Shown: positions 7,152 through 13,675 of the stretch, piece by piece
Layout of the letters: every line of letters starts with the position of its first letter
How positions within the stretch are numbered: the stretch's first letter is position 1
Assembly (NCBI GenBank): GCA_900551595.1
Contig: URWR01000029.1
Coordinates: forward strand, 1-13,675
Origin: an uncultured Coriobacteriaceae bacterium
GTDB taxonomy: Bacteria > Actinomycetota > Coriobacteriia > Coriobacteriales > Atopobiaceae
DNA: 13,675 nt
Reading direction: 5' to 3'
The notes under the pieces: generated by a model
Told to the model about the DNA's origin: nothing
The model's database searches: none
Seen by the model: only the letters and a program-made list of their open reading frames with translations
Made by a program: the position numbers and the translations under genes

Positions 7152-7943
7152 TTAATGTTTACCCATGACACGTGTCATCCAGTCGAGGTTATCCTTCACG
7201 CCCGCGGTGTTGGCGTTGATTTGCTGAGCCTGGTTGAGAATCTGTCCCTGCATCATGAGGTTGCCGATCTGGAGCATATTACCAATGCGCTGCTGATTGA
7301 GCATCTGCTGCTGCCCAGCTTCCATGCGGCGCTGATGCATCTCGGTCTCGTAGAGGTTAACCATCTCCTGAACGGTCGTCGCTCGGTGGTTGCGGACGGC
7401 GGAGAGAAAGAAATCAACGGCGGCGATATTGTCGTAGTCCATCGGATACCACGGAGCAACCTCATGTGCCCAACGACGTTGCACGGCAAATATTTGCTGT
7501 TTGGTTTGCTCGATATTTTGCGTGATGGCCTGGTTGTTGGCCTCTATGCGAGCATTATTCCTATCGATATTTGCGTTTACCTGACTGCGGCTCTTATCAG
7601 CTGACCGAGCAATGACACCATACAGCACAACTCCAATAATGGCCGAGACACAGAGGTTGATGATATTCCACACGGTCACCTGACTGCCCGTGCCTCCCAT
7701 AGCAAAAAATGGAATGGTAAGAGGGTAGGTAATTACTTTGAGCGGTGTGCTGGTAATTGCCGTAAATGCGATCAAGAAGCCGAGCACCGCATATAAAACG
7801 GGGTGCCTCTTTGTTTTTCTTTCTTCTTTAACTGCATAGTGTGAAGTCATCTGATTAATACGATTTTGAAGTCCAACTATTTGATGCATTAAATCATGTG
7901 CGGTTGTAATTCCAGCAAGTAAATCTGTTGGCTGCGTTCCCAT
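7152..7943 (-). CDS. Uncharacterised two-helix membrane protein with coiled coil and Gln-rich tail
   Basis: A 263-residue protein that I cannot assign to a named family. After about 45 mostly polar residues come two hydrophobic segments, HPVLYAVLGFLIAFTAI (about 47-66) and WNIINLCVSAIIGVVLYGV (about 91-112). Next is a long Asn/Gln/Ile-rich stretch of heptad character (about 115-160) suggesting a coiled coil, then a globular patch with an Arg-rich helix. The segment NHRATTVQEMVNLYETEMHQRR resembles a motif I recall from uncharacterised Gram-positive membrane proteins. The C-terminus (about 205-245) is rich in Gln, Asn and Met. ATG 7943 is chosen with GGAAGG about eight bases upstream; GTG 7952 lies too close to the same site. 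It may be co-transcribed with the isomerase gene downstream. Confidence 0.82.
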   Translation of the reverse strand: MGTQPTDLLAGITTAHDLMHQIVGLQNRINQMTSHYAVKEERKTKRHPVLYAVLGFLIAFTAITSTPLKVITYPLTIPFFAMGGTGSQVTVWNIINLCVSAIIGVVLYGVIARSADKSRSQVNANIDRNNARIEANNQAITQNIEQTKQQIFAVQRRWAHEVAPWYPMDYDNIAAVDFFLSAVRNHRATTVQEMVNLYETEMHQRRMEAGQQQMLNQQRIGNMLQIGNLMMQGQILNQAQQINANTAGVKDNLDWMTRVMGKH

Positions 7944-7966
7944 GTGTGCCACCTTCCCCTATTTAC

Positions 7967-8164: not shown

Positions 8165-9517
8165 TCAGCGATCTTTGCCATAGCTCAAGCGCGGAGCACC
8201 ATGCTCACGCAAGTACTTGACAAGTGCATGAGCGGCAGGAGCAGCAGCAAGCAGAAGTACAAGCATAACAACAGAGCCAACACAAGAAATAACCCACATG
8301 GGAATAAACGACTGGAATGCGTCGAAGATAGCGCCGGAAAGCATCGTTCCAAACGCATATCCAAGCATTTCGAGGCTTGTAAGCCAGCCGGTAATACGCC
8401 CTACATCCTTCGGACCATAGCAACGAACCGCTACCAGAGACGGAGCAACCGTACCCATGCAGGTTCCAAAGCCAAAGAAAATTGCCGAGACCACGGGTCC
8501 CCAATTAGTTGCCGCAAAGCACAAACCCACTGAACCAATGAGACACGCTGCACTTCCCACAATAATGCCTGTACGCACACCAAAACGGTCATACAGCCAT
8601 CCCGTAAGAATCTTAGAAACAAGCACCACGATCATGTTGAAAGAATAAATGGCGCTTGCAAAGGACATGTCATGTCCGCCCGTAATAATCTGCTGTCCAT
8701 CTACCGTAACGGCGGTCATGTTGGTAATGGAATTAGGAATAGCCGCACCATTGATAACGCCCATCACCATAAAGCCAGCAACCATAAGCCAGAATGATGG
8801 ATGACGCCACACATGACTCCAATTCACTTCGATATCAACGGGCGTATCTTTCGCACGCTTACCCTTTGCTGAGTCCTGGTTGGCCATATCAGCACCATAG
8901 GGAACAAGACCCAAATCTGAAGGACGACTATGAAACACAACGACCGTAATTGGAAATGCAATCACAAAGCACACAACGGCAAGTACCAAAAACGATGAGC
9001 GCCAACCAATGGAGGCAATGAGTGAACTTACAACTGGAGAGAAAATAGCCCCACCAAAGCCCGAACCACTGAGTGCTACTGCCACCGCCAGGCCTTGTTT
9101 AAGTGTGAACCAATTCGTTAGTACGATAGAAATAAGCAGGCGAGTTCCTGCAACGATAACCAAACCATCAATGGCAAACAGGACAAACAATTGCCACGCA
9201 GCAGATGTACTTGCAAAACCAACAAGAGCGGCTGCGGTAATAGCAACTGATAATCCACCCAAAATACGACCATCAACGTGGTCTACAACATTGCCAATTA
9301 CAAGCGATCCCACAATTGAGACGAGTGTTGACATGGAATTTGCCATGTTATAGGTGCCCACGGTAATGTCAAGATCCTGAACAATGTGAGGCTGGAAGAG
9401 CGACATGCCACTTACCATCGTGGTATAGCATGTCCCCATAATAAGAAAACCGGCAATAACAAGCAGCCAGCCATAGTAAGGTCGCCGCTGAGAAGCAGCT
9501 GGAGTAGTCGAAAACAT
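8165..9517 (-). CDS. MFS transporter, OFA (oxalate/formate antiporter)-like
   Basis: A 450-residue, 12-helix carrier of the major facilitator superfamily. The opening PYYGWLLVIAGFLIMG is characteristic of the OFA/monocarboxylate-like branch. Motif-A loops occur in both halves: GNVVDHVDGR (75-84) and GWLYDRFGVR (306-315). A hydrophilic central loop at about 200-235 links the halves. Members move organic anions, but this protein's substrate is not known. ATG 9517 has AAGGGA about eight bases upstream; the in-frame TTG at 9601 would overlap the upstream gene and lacks support. It starts 49 bp after the M20 amidohydrolase stop on the same strand, so the two likely form an operon. The carrier may import the amidohydrolase substrate or exchange a product. 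Confidence 0.9.
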   Translation of the reverse strand: MFSTTPAASQRRPYYGWLLVIAGFLIMGTCYTTMVSGMSLFQPHIVQDLDITVGTYNMANSMSTLVSIVGSLVIGNVVDHVDGRILGGLSVAITAAALVGFASTSAAWQLFVLFAIDGLVIVAGTRLLISIVLTNWFTLKQGLAVAVALSGSGFGGAIFSPVVSSLIASIGWRSSFLVLAVVCFVIAFPITVVVFHSRPSDLGLVPYGADMANQDSAKGKRAKDTPVDIEVNWSHVWRHPSFWLMVAGFMVMGVINGAAIPNSITNMTAVTVDGQQIITGGHDMSFASAIYSFNMIVVLVSKILTGWLYDRFGVRTGIIVGSAACLIGSVGLCFAATNWGPVVSAIFFGFGTCMGTVAPSLVAVRCYGPKDVGRITGWLTSLEMLGYAFGTMLSGAIFDAFQSFIPMWVISCVGSVVMLVLLLAAAPAAHALVKYLREHGAPRLSYGKDR

Positions 9518-9566
9518 TGAGGACTTCCCTTCTCTCTGGAGCGGCAATATATACACTCTCAAAAAC

Positions 9567-10823
9567 TCAGTTGCTATGACAAGCAAGCCAAGAGACAGCA
9601 ACTACAGCATGTAAAGCAGCACCCATCCATAGGGCGCTCTCATCGATCTTCATATGAGGATTGTGATGTGGCGCCCAATCGGGACCGCCAGCGCCCAAAA
9701 TAGCAAAGAAGCTCGGCACCGTTTTAGATACATAGGAAAAGTCTTCGGTAGCGGCCATAGGCGCAGTTTCATGCACCTTCCCCGGTCCAGCAACAAACTC
9801 AAGCGCAGGCAATACATTTGCAGCTAGCACAGGATCGGTAATAACACTCGGACAATTAAACATTGCTACTTTTGCCGAAGCGCGCCATGCATGTGCATAG
9901 GCATCAACAAGCTCCGGAATGCGCTTAAGCACATGTTCGCGAGCTGCCACATTGAGACTCCGTATTCCAAACTTAAGGTCAGCAGTATCAGGCAATATAT
10001 TGGGAACTGTACCTGCCTGAAGTGCACCACAGGAAAGCGTTATTGCGGCTGCAGGATCAACTTCACGAGTCATCAGCAAATTAAGTGCCTGATAGATTTG
10101 GTTTGCTACCATAAGCGGATCAACACACTGCTGCGGTGCTGATGTGTGGCCACCGTGCCCCTGAATTGTCACCGTAAAGGTATCCAATGATGTGCTTGAT
10201 ACTCCGGGAGCATAAGAAATCTGACCAACTGGTTCGGTTGCCATAATATGCAGGCCAAAAGCAGCATCTACATGCGGGTTCTCTAAAAGGCCGTCTTCGA
10301 TCATGGTGCGCGATCCAGCGCCAAGCTCCTCACCCGGCTGGAACATAAGTTTTACCGTACCCTGAAGCTCATTCTCATGTTGCTTGAGAATCTTCGCTGC
10401 CGCGAGCAGCATGGCTGTGTGTGCATCATGTCCGCACATATGACTACATGTACGATCAGAGCAAAACGGCAGGTCATTTTCCTCAACAATCGGAAGAGCA
10501 TCCATATCGGCGCGAAGTAAGATGCAAGGACCAACATTGCCAATGGTGCCCACTACGCCCGTTGAAGTTGTTATATTTGGATACCCCAATGCCTCGTATA
10601 CCTGCGTGAGCTCGGGTGCCACTTTACCGCAAGGAGTCCAAGGTATCTCCAGCTCATCCAGGCGTTGCTCAACATATGAAGCGGTCTCGGGTATATTCAT
10701 GCCTACTTCAGGTTGCTGATGCAAACAGCGGCGGTCTGCCAGGATGTTTTCCTGCAAACTTCGAGCCTCGTCCAAAAGCTGCTGAGCAAGACGATGCACC
10801 TTGCTAATGCCGTCCGCGCTCAT
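9567..10823 (-). CDS. M20 family amidohydrolase (IAA-amino acid/hippurate hydrolase-like)
   Basis: A 418-residue metal-dependent amidase of peptidase family M20 subfamily D, whose members release amino acids from N-acyl or N-aryl conjugates. Visible motifs are LRADMDALP (103-111), the metal site MCGHDAH (C130, H132), FQPGEE with the catalytic and metal-binding glutamates (E165/E166), GLHI with H192, a dimerisation-domain start at GHGGHTSAP, and the C-terminal MAATEDFSY with PHHNP. An extra stretch near residues 65-85 lengthens the N-terminal part. ATG 10823 has GGAGG eight bases upstream; the in-frame TTG at 10838 overlaps that site and is rejected. It is first in an operon with the OFA-like carrier and divergent from the YtcJ-like gene. 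A perfect inverted repeat lies 33 bp upstream. The substrate is unknown. Confidence 0.92.
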   Translation of the reverse strand: MSADGISKVHRLAQQLLDEARSLQENILADRRCLHQQPEVGMNIPETASYVEQRLDELEIPWTPCGKVAPELTQVYEALGYPNITTSTGVVGTIGNVGPCILLRADMDALPIVEENDLPFCSDRTCSHMCGHDAHTAMLLAAAKILKQHENELQGTVKLMFQPGEELGAGSRTMIEDGLLENPHVDAAFGLHIMATEPVGQISYAPGVSSTSLDTFTVTIQGHGGHTSAPQQCVDPLMVANQIYQALNLLMTREVDPAAAITLSCGALQAGTVPNILPDTADLKFGIRSLNVAAREHVLKRIPELVDAYAHAWRASAKVAMFNCPSVITDPVLAANVLPALEFVAGPGKVHETAPMAATEDFSYVSKTVPSFFAILGAGGPDWAPHHNPHMKIDESALWMGAALHAVVAVSWLACHSN

Positions 10824-11182
10824 ATGGTTTGCCTCCAAATCTTGGTTCGACCTCAGCGCACAGGATTTAATTCAATGAATCCTGTGCGCAATCTTGTCGT
10901 ACTGTCCTTGCACGAATAGCCTATAAGCAAACTATAAGTGCAATACACCCTACCAGCTTCTTTGCACTGCCAAGAGCAATACACCGAGTTCTGTTTGAAA
11001 AATCAACTTTATGGCAACTACTTTGCAATATAGCGACAACCTCGGTGTACGGTATTCCATATAGAGTGCGTTATGCTGAACAACAGTACAAGAGAGTCCC
11101 AGGTACCGTTAAAAGAATCGAAGCAGCGCAACCATGCTATCGAATACTGCAAACGGTATGGAAGTTGGGGTTGGGAGGAATG
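10824..11182. other. 359-bp divergent intergenic region rich in short repeats
   Basis: There is no credible gene here: the open frame reaching back to GTG 11045 has no ribosome binding site and no domain content. Besides the operator-like repeat at 10856-10889, it contains CTATAAG twice (10920-10926 and 10931-10937, 11-bp period) and GCAATACACC twice (10940-10949 and 10976-10985, 36-bp period). It also contains the inverted pair TACACCGAG/CTCGGTGTA (10980-10988 and 11041-11049) and the inverted pair TACCGTT/AACGGTA (11104-11110 and 11152-11158). Promoters for both divergent units should lie here, but no consensus pair is convincing. Confidence 0.55.
10856..10889. promoter_or_regulatory. Perfect 12-bp-arm inverted repeat, candidate operator of the M20-MFS operon
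   Basis: GCGCACAGGATT (10856-10867) and AATCCTGTGCGC (10878-10889) are exact reverse complements with a 10-bp, A+T-rich centre. The repeat lies just upstream of the M20 gene's ribosome binding site. No U tract follows, so it is not a terminator. The centre-to-centre spacing of the arms is 22 bp, about two helical turns, which suits a dimeric repressor. A leader-RNA hairpin is the alternative. Confidence 0.6.
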
Positions 11183-12844
11183 ATGACAAGCACGCATCAT
11201 GACACAGATTCAAATCATTCAGTAACACGATTCGAACACGGTCGGTTTTGGACTGCCAATCCTTCCCAGCCAGAAGCAGATACCATGGTTGTGAACGAAC
11301 AGGGTCGTATTGCCTGGATTGGGCAGGCTACCGAGCTTCCAGAGATTTATACGGGAAGTGCTTGTCGTGTTGTCAATCTTGAAGGTGCTCGTGTTATTCC
11401 AGGATTTGTAGATGCCCACATGCATGCTGTTATGCTCGCCAACTTTGCCCCGCAAATCTCAGCACTACCGCCAGCGGTAAACTCCATTGAAGATCTTGTT
11501 AATGCCATTGCCGCCCGCCGTGCCCAGCAGGGTCCTGATGCTTGGATTGAGGGTTGGGGCTATGACGAGGGGCTCTTTGCAGAGAAACGCTCTCCCACTC
11601 GTTGGGACTTAGACCGTGGATGTGCCGATGCACCCGTGTGCATAATGCGTACCTGTGGACATATTCGCTGTGTGAATAGCCGTGCGCTTGAGCTTGCTGG
11701 TATTACTCGCGATACACCCGATCCTGCTGGTGGTGAAATCGAACGTAATGCTAACGGTGAGCCAACAGGCGTTCTCAAGGAAACTGCTCGTAACCTTGTA
11801 ACACCGGTAATTCCCAAGCCCAGCCGAGAAGACGCTGTACACAACATTGTGGCGCTTGGACAGCTTCTGGCATCGCAAGGCGTTGTTGCTGGTACAGATA
11901 TGTGCAGCGTCGATGGTACCGATACTCACCCGCTTCTTATTGATGCAGCACGCCATGGGCTGCCGCAAGATATTGCCAGCTACATGCTGTGGGACTACAT
12001 CAAGGCAAATCCCGATGCATACATACTTGGTTCGGACGAAATGAATCGTTCGCAGCAGATATTCTCTGCTGGAATAAAAATTCTCACTGATGGCAGCGTT
12101 TCAGGTCGCACGGCATGGTTCTATGAGCCTTTCCTTCCCTCTGACCGAGATCTTGGTGCAGAGAACTGCGGCATTCCTACCTGCACCGATGAAGATATTG
12201 ATGCCGCCATTGCCTTTTGCCAAGCTCATCACTGCCAGCTCTCACTTCATGCTATGGGTACCCACGCTATCGACCGCGTACTCGATCGCGTCATGGCTGC
12301 CGGACTTTGGGACGCAGGTTCTGTACCGCCGGTGCGTGTGGAGCATGTAACAGCTCCCTCTGCCCACGCAATAAAAACTTTTGCTCAAACAGGCATTGCA
12401 GTTGTAACTCAACCCATCTTTCCTTACGCAGAAATTGATACGTACCGCACTAACCTCGGCGATACGCGCACCCGCAGTTGCTATCCTTTCCGCACTATGG
12501 TTGACGCTGGAGTACGAGTAGCTTTATCTACTGACGCTCCTGCCACTTCGTGGGCCGTACCATCCGACCCATTCCCCAACCTGAAGAGTGCCATTACACG
12601 CCGTGCACATACAGGCTTTGATTTTGGTCAAGATGAGCGCCTCAGTCGCGAGGAAGCACTGAGCCGATACACACGTGAAGCTGCTTCGGTGGTTGGGTTT
12701 GAGGGTCTTGGTATGCTTTGTGCGGGCTATAAGGCAAGCTTTGCTGTTCTTGACCGAGACTTGCTCACAATCCCAGAAGACGAGATTGATAAGGTGCAGG
12801 TTACTGCAACATATATTCGTGGCAAGAAGGTTTTTGAAGCCTAA
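11183..12844 (+). CDS. YtcJ-like metal-dependent amidohydrolase (Amidohydro_3)
   Basis: A 553-residue amidohydrolase-superfamily enzyme of the YtcJ/AepA type, with a TIM-barrel metal site inside a beta-sandwich composite domain. The sequence shows the first metal motif FVDAHMH (H79, H81), a KILTDGSVSGRTA segment with the candidate metal-bridging lysine (K299), SLHAMGTHAID (H356), RVEHV (H388) and LSTDAPA (D451). These complete the HxH-K-H-H-D pattern, so an active hydrolase is expected; relatives cleave amide or formyl bonds of small molecules. Length is normal. Two adjacent ATGs (11180, 11183) follow GGGAGGA; 11183 has the better spacing. It is divergent from the M20-MFS operon and probably works on related amide substrates. 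A strong hairpin follows the stop. Confidence 0.9.
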   Translation: MTSTHHDTDSNHSVTRFEHGRFWTANPSQPEADTMVVNEQGRIAWIGQATELPEIYTGSACRVVNLEGARVIPGFVDAHMHAVMLANFAPQISALPPAVNSIEDLVNAIAARRAQQGPDAWIEGWGYDEGLFAEKRSPTRWDLDRGCADAPVCIMRTCGHIRCVNSRALELAGITRDTPDPAGGEIERNANGEPTGVLKETARNLVTPVIPKPSREDAVHNIVALGQLLASQGVVAGTDMCSVDGTDTHPLLIDAARHGLPQDIASYMLWDYIKANPDAYILGSDEMNRSQQIFSAGIKILTDGSVSGRTAWFYEPFLPSDRDLGAENCGIPTCTDEDIDAAIAFCQAHHCQLSLHAMGTHAIDRVLDRVMAAGLWDAGSVPPVRVEHVTAPSAHAIKTFAQTGIAVVTQPIFPYAEIDTYRTNLGDTRTRSCYPFRTMVDAGVRVALSTDAPATSWAVPSDPFPNLKSAITRRAHTGFDFGQDERLSREEALSRYTREAASVVGFEGLGMLCAGYKASFAVLDRDLLTIPEDEIDKVQVTATYIRGKKVFEA

Positions 12845-12922: not shown

Positions 12923-12955
12923 AAAAAAAAGCTCGGAGAGCATAGCCTCCGAGCT
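12923..12955 (-). terminator. Rho-independent terminator downstream of the tRNA fragment
   Basis: On the minus strand, AGCTCGGAG and CTCCGAGCT form a 9-bp stem with an 8-nt loop, followed by a run of eight T (A run at 12923-12930, the innermost of which also pairs). It lies 9 bp past the CCA end of the tRNA fragment, so it is most likely the tRNA gene's original terminator. It now also ends any transcript reading out of the integrase. Confidence 0.92.
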
Positions 12956-12964
12956 GATGTTTCA

Positions 12965-13002
12965 TGGTCGCGGGGGCAGGATTTGAACCTACGACCTCCG
13001 GG
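12965..13002 (-). tRNA. 3' end of a tRNA gene (most like tRNA-Met), att core
   Basis: On the minus strand the sequence reads as the last part of a tRNA. First is the 3' strand of the anticodon stem CCCGG (13002-12998), then variable loop AGGTC. The T arm is GTAGG-TTCAAAT-CCTGC. It ends with acceptor strand CCCCGCG, discriminator A and encoded CCA (12967-12965). The layout CCCGGAGGTCG...CAAATCCTGCCCCCGC is like bacterial initiator tRNA-Met. However, position 72 is G rather than the usual mismatched base, and the anticodon is missing, so identity is not certain. Upstream (13003 on) there is no D arm, anticodon arm or 5' acceptor strand. It is therefore a displaced 3' fragment left by integration, not a whole gene. 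Confidence 0.85.
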
Positions 13003-13100
13003 CAAGCGAGGGACGCTTCTCGTATCACGAGGTCAACCTTTATATCCTCCCAGCTCATGATGCGTATTTTGCGGTATTCGGATACGCTCTGTGGTCATAT

Positions 13101-13144
13101 AAATCACCGTAAATCACGCTGATACTCATTACCATACTCATTAC
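13101..13144. repeat. Two sets of short tandem direct repeats next to the integrase
   Basis: AAATCAC occurs at 13101-13107 and 13111-13117 (10-bp period), then ATACTCATTAC at 13122-13132 and 13134-13144 (12-bp period). The last copy runs into the integrase stop codon. The position between att core and integrase, and the near-helical periods, fit arm-type integrase or excisionase binding sites. This is inference. Confidence 0.5.
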
Positions 13145-13675
13145 TTTGCGCCTTCAGGACGCCGAAGCATCTCCACCAGAGGCGAGATGTCGGTGAGGTC
13201 GGTATAGTAGCTCCTGTTGACCTCCGGGCTGTGGCCGAAGTACGCCGCGCGCTGGATTTCCGGAACTCCCTTGTTCAGCCACTCGGTATTGAGCGTGGCT
13301 CGCCACACGTGAGTGGACACCTCGTTCAAGAGGGGAATGTCCAAAGCATCGGCAAGCTCGTGGTACAGCTTCTTGATGGCGTGCTCGGCGTTGTTCAAGT
13401 CCCACTCTTTACCGGGAGCGGCGGGAGCGGGGAACAAGAGCGCATCTGGTGCCTTCCCAGCCTCCTCGAGACGTTTCCGTACGCGCTCGGCAACGCGCTC
13501 GTCCAGCACGGGGATTGTGCGCCCCTTGTGCGTCTTCGAGGTCTCTTCGGTGACGGTGATGGTGAGCAGGCCGTCCTTCTCGCCCACGTTCCACCGTGCG
13601 AGCGTCCTCGCCTCGTTGATGCGGAGACCAGTTGCTGCCTGAAGCAACGTGATCTCCGTAACAGCGCGGCGCAGG
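13141..13675 (-). CDS. Tyrosine-type site-specific recombinase/integrase, catalytic domain (5' end outside window)
   Basis: The C-terminal 177 residues of a tyrosine recombinase are visible; the frame is open to the right edge. Catalytic signatures are the first Arg in ATGLRINEA, the His-x-x-Arg box in STHVWRAT, the GHS motif, and the nucleophilic Tyr in VNRSYYTDL about ten residues after GH. An N-terminal DNA-binding domain is expected beyond the window. The gene reads toward the tRNA fragment 138 bp away, the usual arrangement for an integrase beside its att site. Its sequence is about 65% G+C, clearly higher than the genes to the left, a sign of recent acquisition. Product: excision and integration of the element to the right. 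Confidence 0.9.
   Translation of the reverse strand, partial: LRRAVTEITLLQAATGLRINEARTLARWNVGEKDGLLTITVTEETSKTHKGRTIPVLDERVAERVRKRLEEAGKAPDALLFPAPAAPGKEWDLNNAEHAIKKLYHELADALDIPLLNEVSTHVWRATLNTEWLNKGVPEIQRAAYFGHSPEVNRSYYTDLTDISPLVEMLRRPEGAK

Follow-up and report, generated by a model that had tools for sequence, protein, structure and literature searches.

Which mobile element ends at the right-hand border of this DNA, which host gene did it enter, and at which bases does element give way to host? The window, by which we mean the whole 13,675-nucleotide stretch analysed here, closes with four features on its minus strand:

12930..12955, minus strand: tRNA-gene terminator-like hairpin, still present on the chromosomal side (10 pairs, 6 of them GC, with a T tail)
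12965..13002, minus strand: initiator tRNA-fMet gene, displaced 3' fragment covering tRNA positions 39-76 with the CCA (38/38 identical to the intact tRNA-fMet of relatives)
13003..13140, minus strand: element end between the integrase stop codon and the tRNA fragment, 138 bp, presumed attachment-site arm region
13141..13674, minus strand: tyrosine integrase, C-terminal 177 amino acids, frame open at the window end (PF00589 and motifs)

This arrangement very probably represents the integrase-side end of an integrative element of about 8-10 kb, inserted site-specifically by a tyrosine recombinase into the host initiator tRNA-fMet gene, with the exchange falling within tRNA positions 39-49.

The tRNA fragment, read on the minus strand from 13002 to 12965 as CCCGG-AGGTC-GTAGG-TTCAAAT-CCTGC-CCCCGCG-A-CCA, has no 5' tRNA half and agrees at all 38 nucleotides with the 3' portion of initiator tRNA-fMet genes that are intact in relatives, for example at L004 (8155-8231) and L194 (L, G and C numbers are our handles for loci, genomes and contigs). 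By sequence comparison, its source can be named as the initiator tRNA-fMet gene, and an exact match of this length to a gene that is intact in relatives would be no chance event. In the intact genes, CCC at 39-41 lies opposite GGG at 29-31, a feature of initiator tRNAs. Within the window, neither ARAGORN nor Rfam at gathering thresholds called a tRNA. The integrase frame matches PF00589 (2.8e-12) and contains GLRINEA, SKTHKGR, HVWR, GH and YY, presumably the catalytic motifs of a tyrosine integrase. GC content shows only a weak step, from 0.50-0.54 to 0.57 in the last interval. The first-pass annotation had described a 38-nt tRNA 3' end lacking its 5' half, a terminator still attached on the chromosomal side and a tyrosine integrase 138 bp away. 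Each of these elements is borne out: the same 38 nt terminate the intact tRNA-fMet genes of relatives, a hairpin with T tail lies at 12955-12930 of the minus strand, and the gap to the PF00589 frame is exactly 138 bp.

Related elements with the same anatomy occur elsewhere in the order. To survey relatives, we used the L081 integrase as query against 395 genomes of the Coriobacteriales and obtained matches in at least 26, a lower bound since at most four candidates per genome were scored; the family search gave 8 of 65. Strong matches (E below 1e-20) were present in 17 genomes, and in 16 of them a tRNA-fMet fragment lies no more than about 210 bp from the integrase match, the exception being G098, in which no fragment stands beside the integrase. 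The weak match of G014, the only one checked among the nine weaker matches, has no adjoining fragment. A regenerated intact tRNA-fMet gene is located on the same contig and strand in nine of the 17 strong-match genomes. Four of these show the full layout, in which the fragment, the integrase, the element and an intact tRNA-fMet follow one another on a single contig and strand, with repeat-to-repeat lengths of 8,860 bp (G179), 10,091 bp (G249), 9,624 bp (G229) and 7,648 bp (G166), and the same order from fragment through integrase to intact tRNA is present in G006, G151, G112, G171 and G027, the integrase of G027 being in two pieces. The far end in G299 and G043 is another fragment of an array, with the intact gene on another contig, and the intact tRNA-fMet of G064 and G159 likewise lies on another contig. 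Contig C3 of G024 continues for over 340 kb past its fragment and integrase (111882-113251) and has no intact tRNA-fMet along that length; the intact gene is located on C6. This arrangement is not explained by the simple layout and reflects either rearrangement or misassembly. The remaining two genomes are arranged differently, with the integrase on the opposite side of the att site in G026 and an inverted order in G047.

These layouts bear on three further claims made from the window sequence, namely that it holds the end of an integrative element in a tRNA gene, that the element extends rightward from the fragment, and that its far end holds, on the same strand, an intact tRNA with a matching 3' part. 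The first two are backed by the anatomy and layouts of the relatives and the third by nine of the 17 genomes, its extension to the window's own copy being by homology. We infer that the window copy has the same far end and the same crossover as its relatives.

Several loci depart from the common pattern. In G026 (C1 173014-174384) and G171 (C6 144486-145928), integrases of about 48-50% identity are found on that side of the att site which carries the rebuilt tRNA, and not next to the displaced fragment. In G047 (C1 1894290-1895858; L118, L131), an intact tRNA-fMet and a fragment are found on opposite strands about 100 bp apart with an integrase adjoining, which looks like an inversion at an array. 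One contig of G299 (C6, L202) carries three tRNA-fMet 3' fragments, two of them in L081, and is a tandem array at one gene of elements with different ends. A search of viral contigs, with a single protein and an alignment as queries, returned one relative, L081, whose integrase is 95% identical and has the same fragment beside it; we did not count this match as evidence that the element is a virus.

The left side of the junction is most likely chromosomal. It contains a gene that faces the tRNA gene:

11045..12844, plus strand: amidohydrolase gene (PF07969), chromosomal flank, convergent with the tRNA gene

The cluster made up of this gene and those at 8165-9601 and 9567-10838 is kept together in L001 (first gene partial), L002, L003, L010 and L052. 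This amidohydrolase is also present in Candidatus Limicola stercorigallinarum (L004), where it is located 3' of an intact tRNA-fMet gene, convergent with it and 1.85 kb apart; the interval holds a 363-aa and a 163-aa ORF, and no tRNA fragment was seen in it. The presence of the cluster in relatives, together with the amidohydrolase beside an intact tRNA-fMet in L004, makes a chromosomal origin of the left side most likely, with the window fragment apparently occupying the place expected for the 3' end of the host gene. Alternatively, the left side could be a further element of a tandem array, given that several fragments share one contig in G299/L081, G026, G171, G027 and G047 and that the window gene at 7152-7952 resembles element cargo. 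The conserved cluster at 8165-12844 and the intact tRNA-fMet adjoining the amidohydrolase of Ca. Limicola led us to reject this option, which we consider extremely unlikely, in favor of a chromosomal left flank. The gene at 7152-7952 (minus strand, chromosomal side) encodes a 266-aa protein with 72-77% identity to a cargo-gene product that the elements of G179, G249 and G043 carry close to their far end; the gene is either a host gene taken up as cargo or cargo stranded in the chromosome.

The visible end is nearly identical to elements residing in other species. Positions 12965-13675 of the window (711 bases) are 99.2% identical to the element end of G229, the match ending at the tRNA CCA, and positions 12944-13675 are 98.8% identical to that of G249. 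The integrase is 99.4% identical to those of both genomes over the 177 C-terminal amino acids compared, and the distance from integrase stop to fragment, taken from coordinates, is 138 bp in the window, G179, G249, G229 and G166 alike. No match to the window amidohydrolase was found in G249, G179 or G166 and only a weak one in G229, indicating that a near-identical element is present in different species. The identity of about 99% with elements in genomes without a close amidohydrolase homologue further indicates recent transfer. A different reading would make the window end a dead remnant of an old insertion, its far end gone and no intact element to the right. The far end does lie beyond the window, the G043 integrase has an in-frame stop, and TGCCCG-type fragments occur without an adjoining window-type integrase in G026 and G171. 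However, the visible end is about 99% identical at the DNA level to elements of full layout in two genomes that lack a close homologue of the window amidohydrolase, and the visible integrase frame is open. We regard a dead remnant as very unlikely. In total, the window-type end pattern was found in 8 of the 395 genomes, six with window-type integrases plus G026 and G171.

Host alleles in relatives place the switch from element to host outside the anticodon loop. We compared seven window-type integrase ends, those of the window, G249, G229, G179, G166, G043 and G299. On the element side, all seven differ from the CTCATAA found at positions 32-38 of the gene, reading TCGCTTG (as in the window), AGTTCTG or AAGGGTG, so element DNA reaches at least to position 38. 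The T stem at the integrase end varies while the adjoining element hardly varies: it reads GTAGG in the window, G299, G179 and G166, GTTGG in G249 and G229, and GGTGG in G043. At the far ends, the T stem is GTAGG in all six that could be read. The GTTGG allele is shared by two relatives of G249 (G230 and G246) and by the two best upstream matches among the relatives of G229 (G227 and G228); two other relatives of G249, G263 and G067, have GTAGG. The T stem at the integrase end thus follows the host, which sets the start of host DNA at position 50 or earlier in G043 and at position 51 or earlier in G249 and G229. With element DNA to at least 38 and host DNA from 50 or 51, the switch falls within 39-49 and outside the anticodon loop. 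For the window copy, we place it by homology in the corresponding interval:

12992..13002, minus strand: putative element-to-host switch interval, tRNA positions 39-49 (homology with G249, G229 and G043)

The edge of similarity at position 39 would then mark the border of the shared core, with the crossover located elsewhere. The first-pass annotation had proposed strand exchange in the anticodon loop, a placement that does not agree with an element sequence differing at 32-38 and a T stem following the host. The loop could nevertheless be the site of exchange for this same element if its integrase tolerated mismatches in the overlap. Such tolerance is described for some tyrosine integrases (PMC10865867), the anticodon loop is among the three subsites on record (PMC4383910), and the edge of similarity does coincide with the loop/stem border. 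In addition, relatives of the G006 type, whose integrase shows 43-44% identity, have CATAACCC and a larger part of the anticodon loop in common with the gene. Resolution of mismatched overlaps, however, would be expected to leave the host version at 32-38 at times, and element and gene mismatch there in all seven window-type ends. We judge exchange in the loop to be unlikely and retain a switch within 39-49. Crossover in the T loop or at the T/acceptor junction (at or 3' of position 54) was rejected on the grounds that the integrase-end T stem follows the host in G249, G229 and G043 and that the far ends read GTAGG.

One relative lacks the element at an otherwise matching site. Compared with G043, G014 is 97.8% identical along the 5,606 bp that lead to the integrase-end fragment and 96.5% identical along 3,014 bp past the far end. 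The 8.65 kb separating these flanks in G043 are absent from G014, whose only integrase match is the weak one, on another contig. Comparison with a strain lacking the element had been suggested as a check. G014 provides such a relative for G043, but the joined site there is one of the fragments making up an array. Consequently, the element of G043 either entered that fragment, or entered the tRNA gene first and was followed by a second element in G043 only. The integrase of the G043 element (C1 83753-84973) contains one in-frame TAG stop.

Within 39-49, the favored, though not firm, candidate for the exchange segment is AGGTCG at 44-49, in the variable loop (window 12992-12997, minus strand). 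G043 carries G43 at its integrase end. The same 3' half, terminator included, carries A43 in G014 and also, behind another element end, in G265; this puts the switch in G043 3' of position 43 and hence within 44-49. G229 likewise has G43 at its integrase end against A43 in the native alleles of G227 and G228, which points to a switch 3' of 43. In G229, however, an element-like terminator follows the displaced half, which makes it uncertain what occupied the site previously; the gene may have been rebuilt once before. The evidence is mixed: in five of the six genomes with a known host gene (G249, G299, G043, G179 and G166, but not G229), the integrase end has at position 43 the pairing partner of host position 27. 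This is expected if base 43 is host-derived and counts against 44-49; an exchange segment that includes position 43 could explain the mixed pattern. At position 47, the rebuilt tRNA-fMet of G166 (C7 19019-19096, L196) has C and its displaced fragment has T; T is also found in the other tabulated genes, except for C47 in L087 (G002), a different allele. Among intact genes fitting our search pattern, to which the pairing count was confined, both stems are fully paired in 50 of 50 distinct contexts when G-T is counted, and the 27-43 pair is Watson-Crick in 49 of them and T-G in one (G152).

Taken together, we see about an even chance that a subfamily of Coriobacteriales integrases uses a further tRNA sublocation between the anticodon loop and the T stem, most likely the variable loop at 44-49. 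If exchange does occur at 44-49, both strands of the anticodon stem would be host-derived and both strands of the T stem element-derived. The gene would in this case be swapped by modules, the host keeping the whole anticodon arm, including the initiator-specific GGG/CCC pairs, and the element bringing a complete T arm, and every insertion would rewrite the T arm of what is apparently the sole initiator tRNA gene in the cell. No more than one near-identical intact tRNA-fMet was seen per genome. The possibly incomplete genomes G003 and G007 showed none, and two near-full tRNA-fMet matches were present in G158.

The following sequence of events would account for the locus. The integrase would join the att site of the circular element to the tRNA gene within 39-49, most likely at AGGTCG (44-49). 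At the far end, the 5' part of the host gene would be completed by a 3' part that the element brings along together with a terminator of its own, giving a rebuilt initiator tRNA gene, and the old 3' part with the old terminator would remain behind as the 38-nt fragment of the window. We infer that strand exchange is carried out by the integrase seen here. The element would also be able to excise, replicate by means of its P4-type primase and move between species.

From the integrase end, the order of genes in window-type elements is integrase, HTH_17 protein, P4-family primase, cargo, and an XRE regulator at the far end. For the small HTH_17 protein, the stronger match is to an excisionase family (phrog_66, 8.7e-08) and a weaker one is to a small-terminase family (phrog_57, 7.1e-06). 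The primase matches TIGR01613 (4.2e-57) and also PF19263, DUF5906, D5_N and Pox_D5. Some of the elements encode a SAP-domain protein, and most cargo is without family matches. Scanning the main ORFs of G249, G229, G179, G166, G043 and L081 revealed no capsid, terminase (apart from the weak phrog_57 match), relaxase or FtsK-like protein; a Mob_Pre relaxase is present in the distant relative G112. The element may be a satellite or a mobilizable element. Satellites of the P4 and PICI kinds carry an integrase, an Xis-like HTH protein, a P4-family primase and an XRE regulator, the same set that is found here within about 8-10 kb. In contrast to them, no capsid or large-terminase gene was detected among the proteins scanned, and the small-terminase match (phrog_57) is weak. 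AICEs reside in Actinomycetota, use tRNA genes as sites and have an int-xis-rep backbone. Host phylum, site and backbone agree in the present case, whereas an FtsK/TraB-like translocase was not found among the scanned proteins of window-type elements.

Mobile elements that occupy tRNA genes are a known kind, of which the crossover placement described here is a variant. For genomic islands in tRNA genes, the Islander catalogue recognizes three crossover subsites, namely anticodon loop, T loop and T/acceptor junction (PMC4383910). Its islands share with the relatives studied here a tyrosine integrase, a regenerated tRNA at one end, a displaced 3' fragment at the other and the occurrence of tandem arrays; the switch within 39-49 differs from its three subsites. 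By fragment length, the element would probably be counted as anticodon-centred. A review of archaeal systems places the cuts at loop borders (PMC8371274). The Vibrio islands VPaI-1 and VSP-II also lie in a tRNA-Met gene at a hotspot shared across species and have a phage-like integrase and a direct repeat (45 bp in VPaI-1), but at 24-27 kb they are larger than the element of about 8-10 kb (PMC1464126). In the open-access literature, to the extent that its text was accessible, we found no report of a variable-loop crossover, of a switch between anticodon loop and T stem, or of this element.

The length of a displaced fragment makes it easy to infer a crossover position, and the host alleles of relatives show that for one integrase subfamily this gives the wrong place. 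If confirmed, exchange in the variable loop would add one more usable sublocation within tRNA genes and would explain how an element from a foreign species can rewrite part of the initiator tRNA gene without breaking its stems. In a lineage that has been little studied, the locus also offers an att site open to direct testing. While displaced tRNA-fMet pieces are usually 3' fragments, a 5' fragment (query positions 1-42) lies near the intact gene in G152 (C10 111115-111156) and G357 (C102 131-172).
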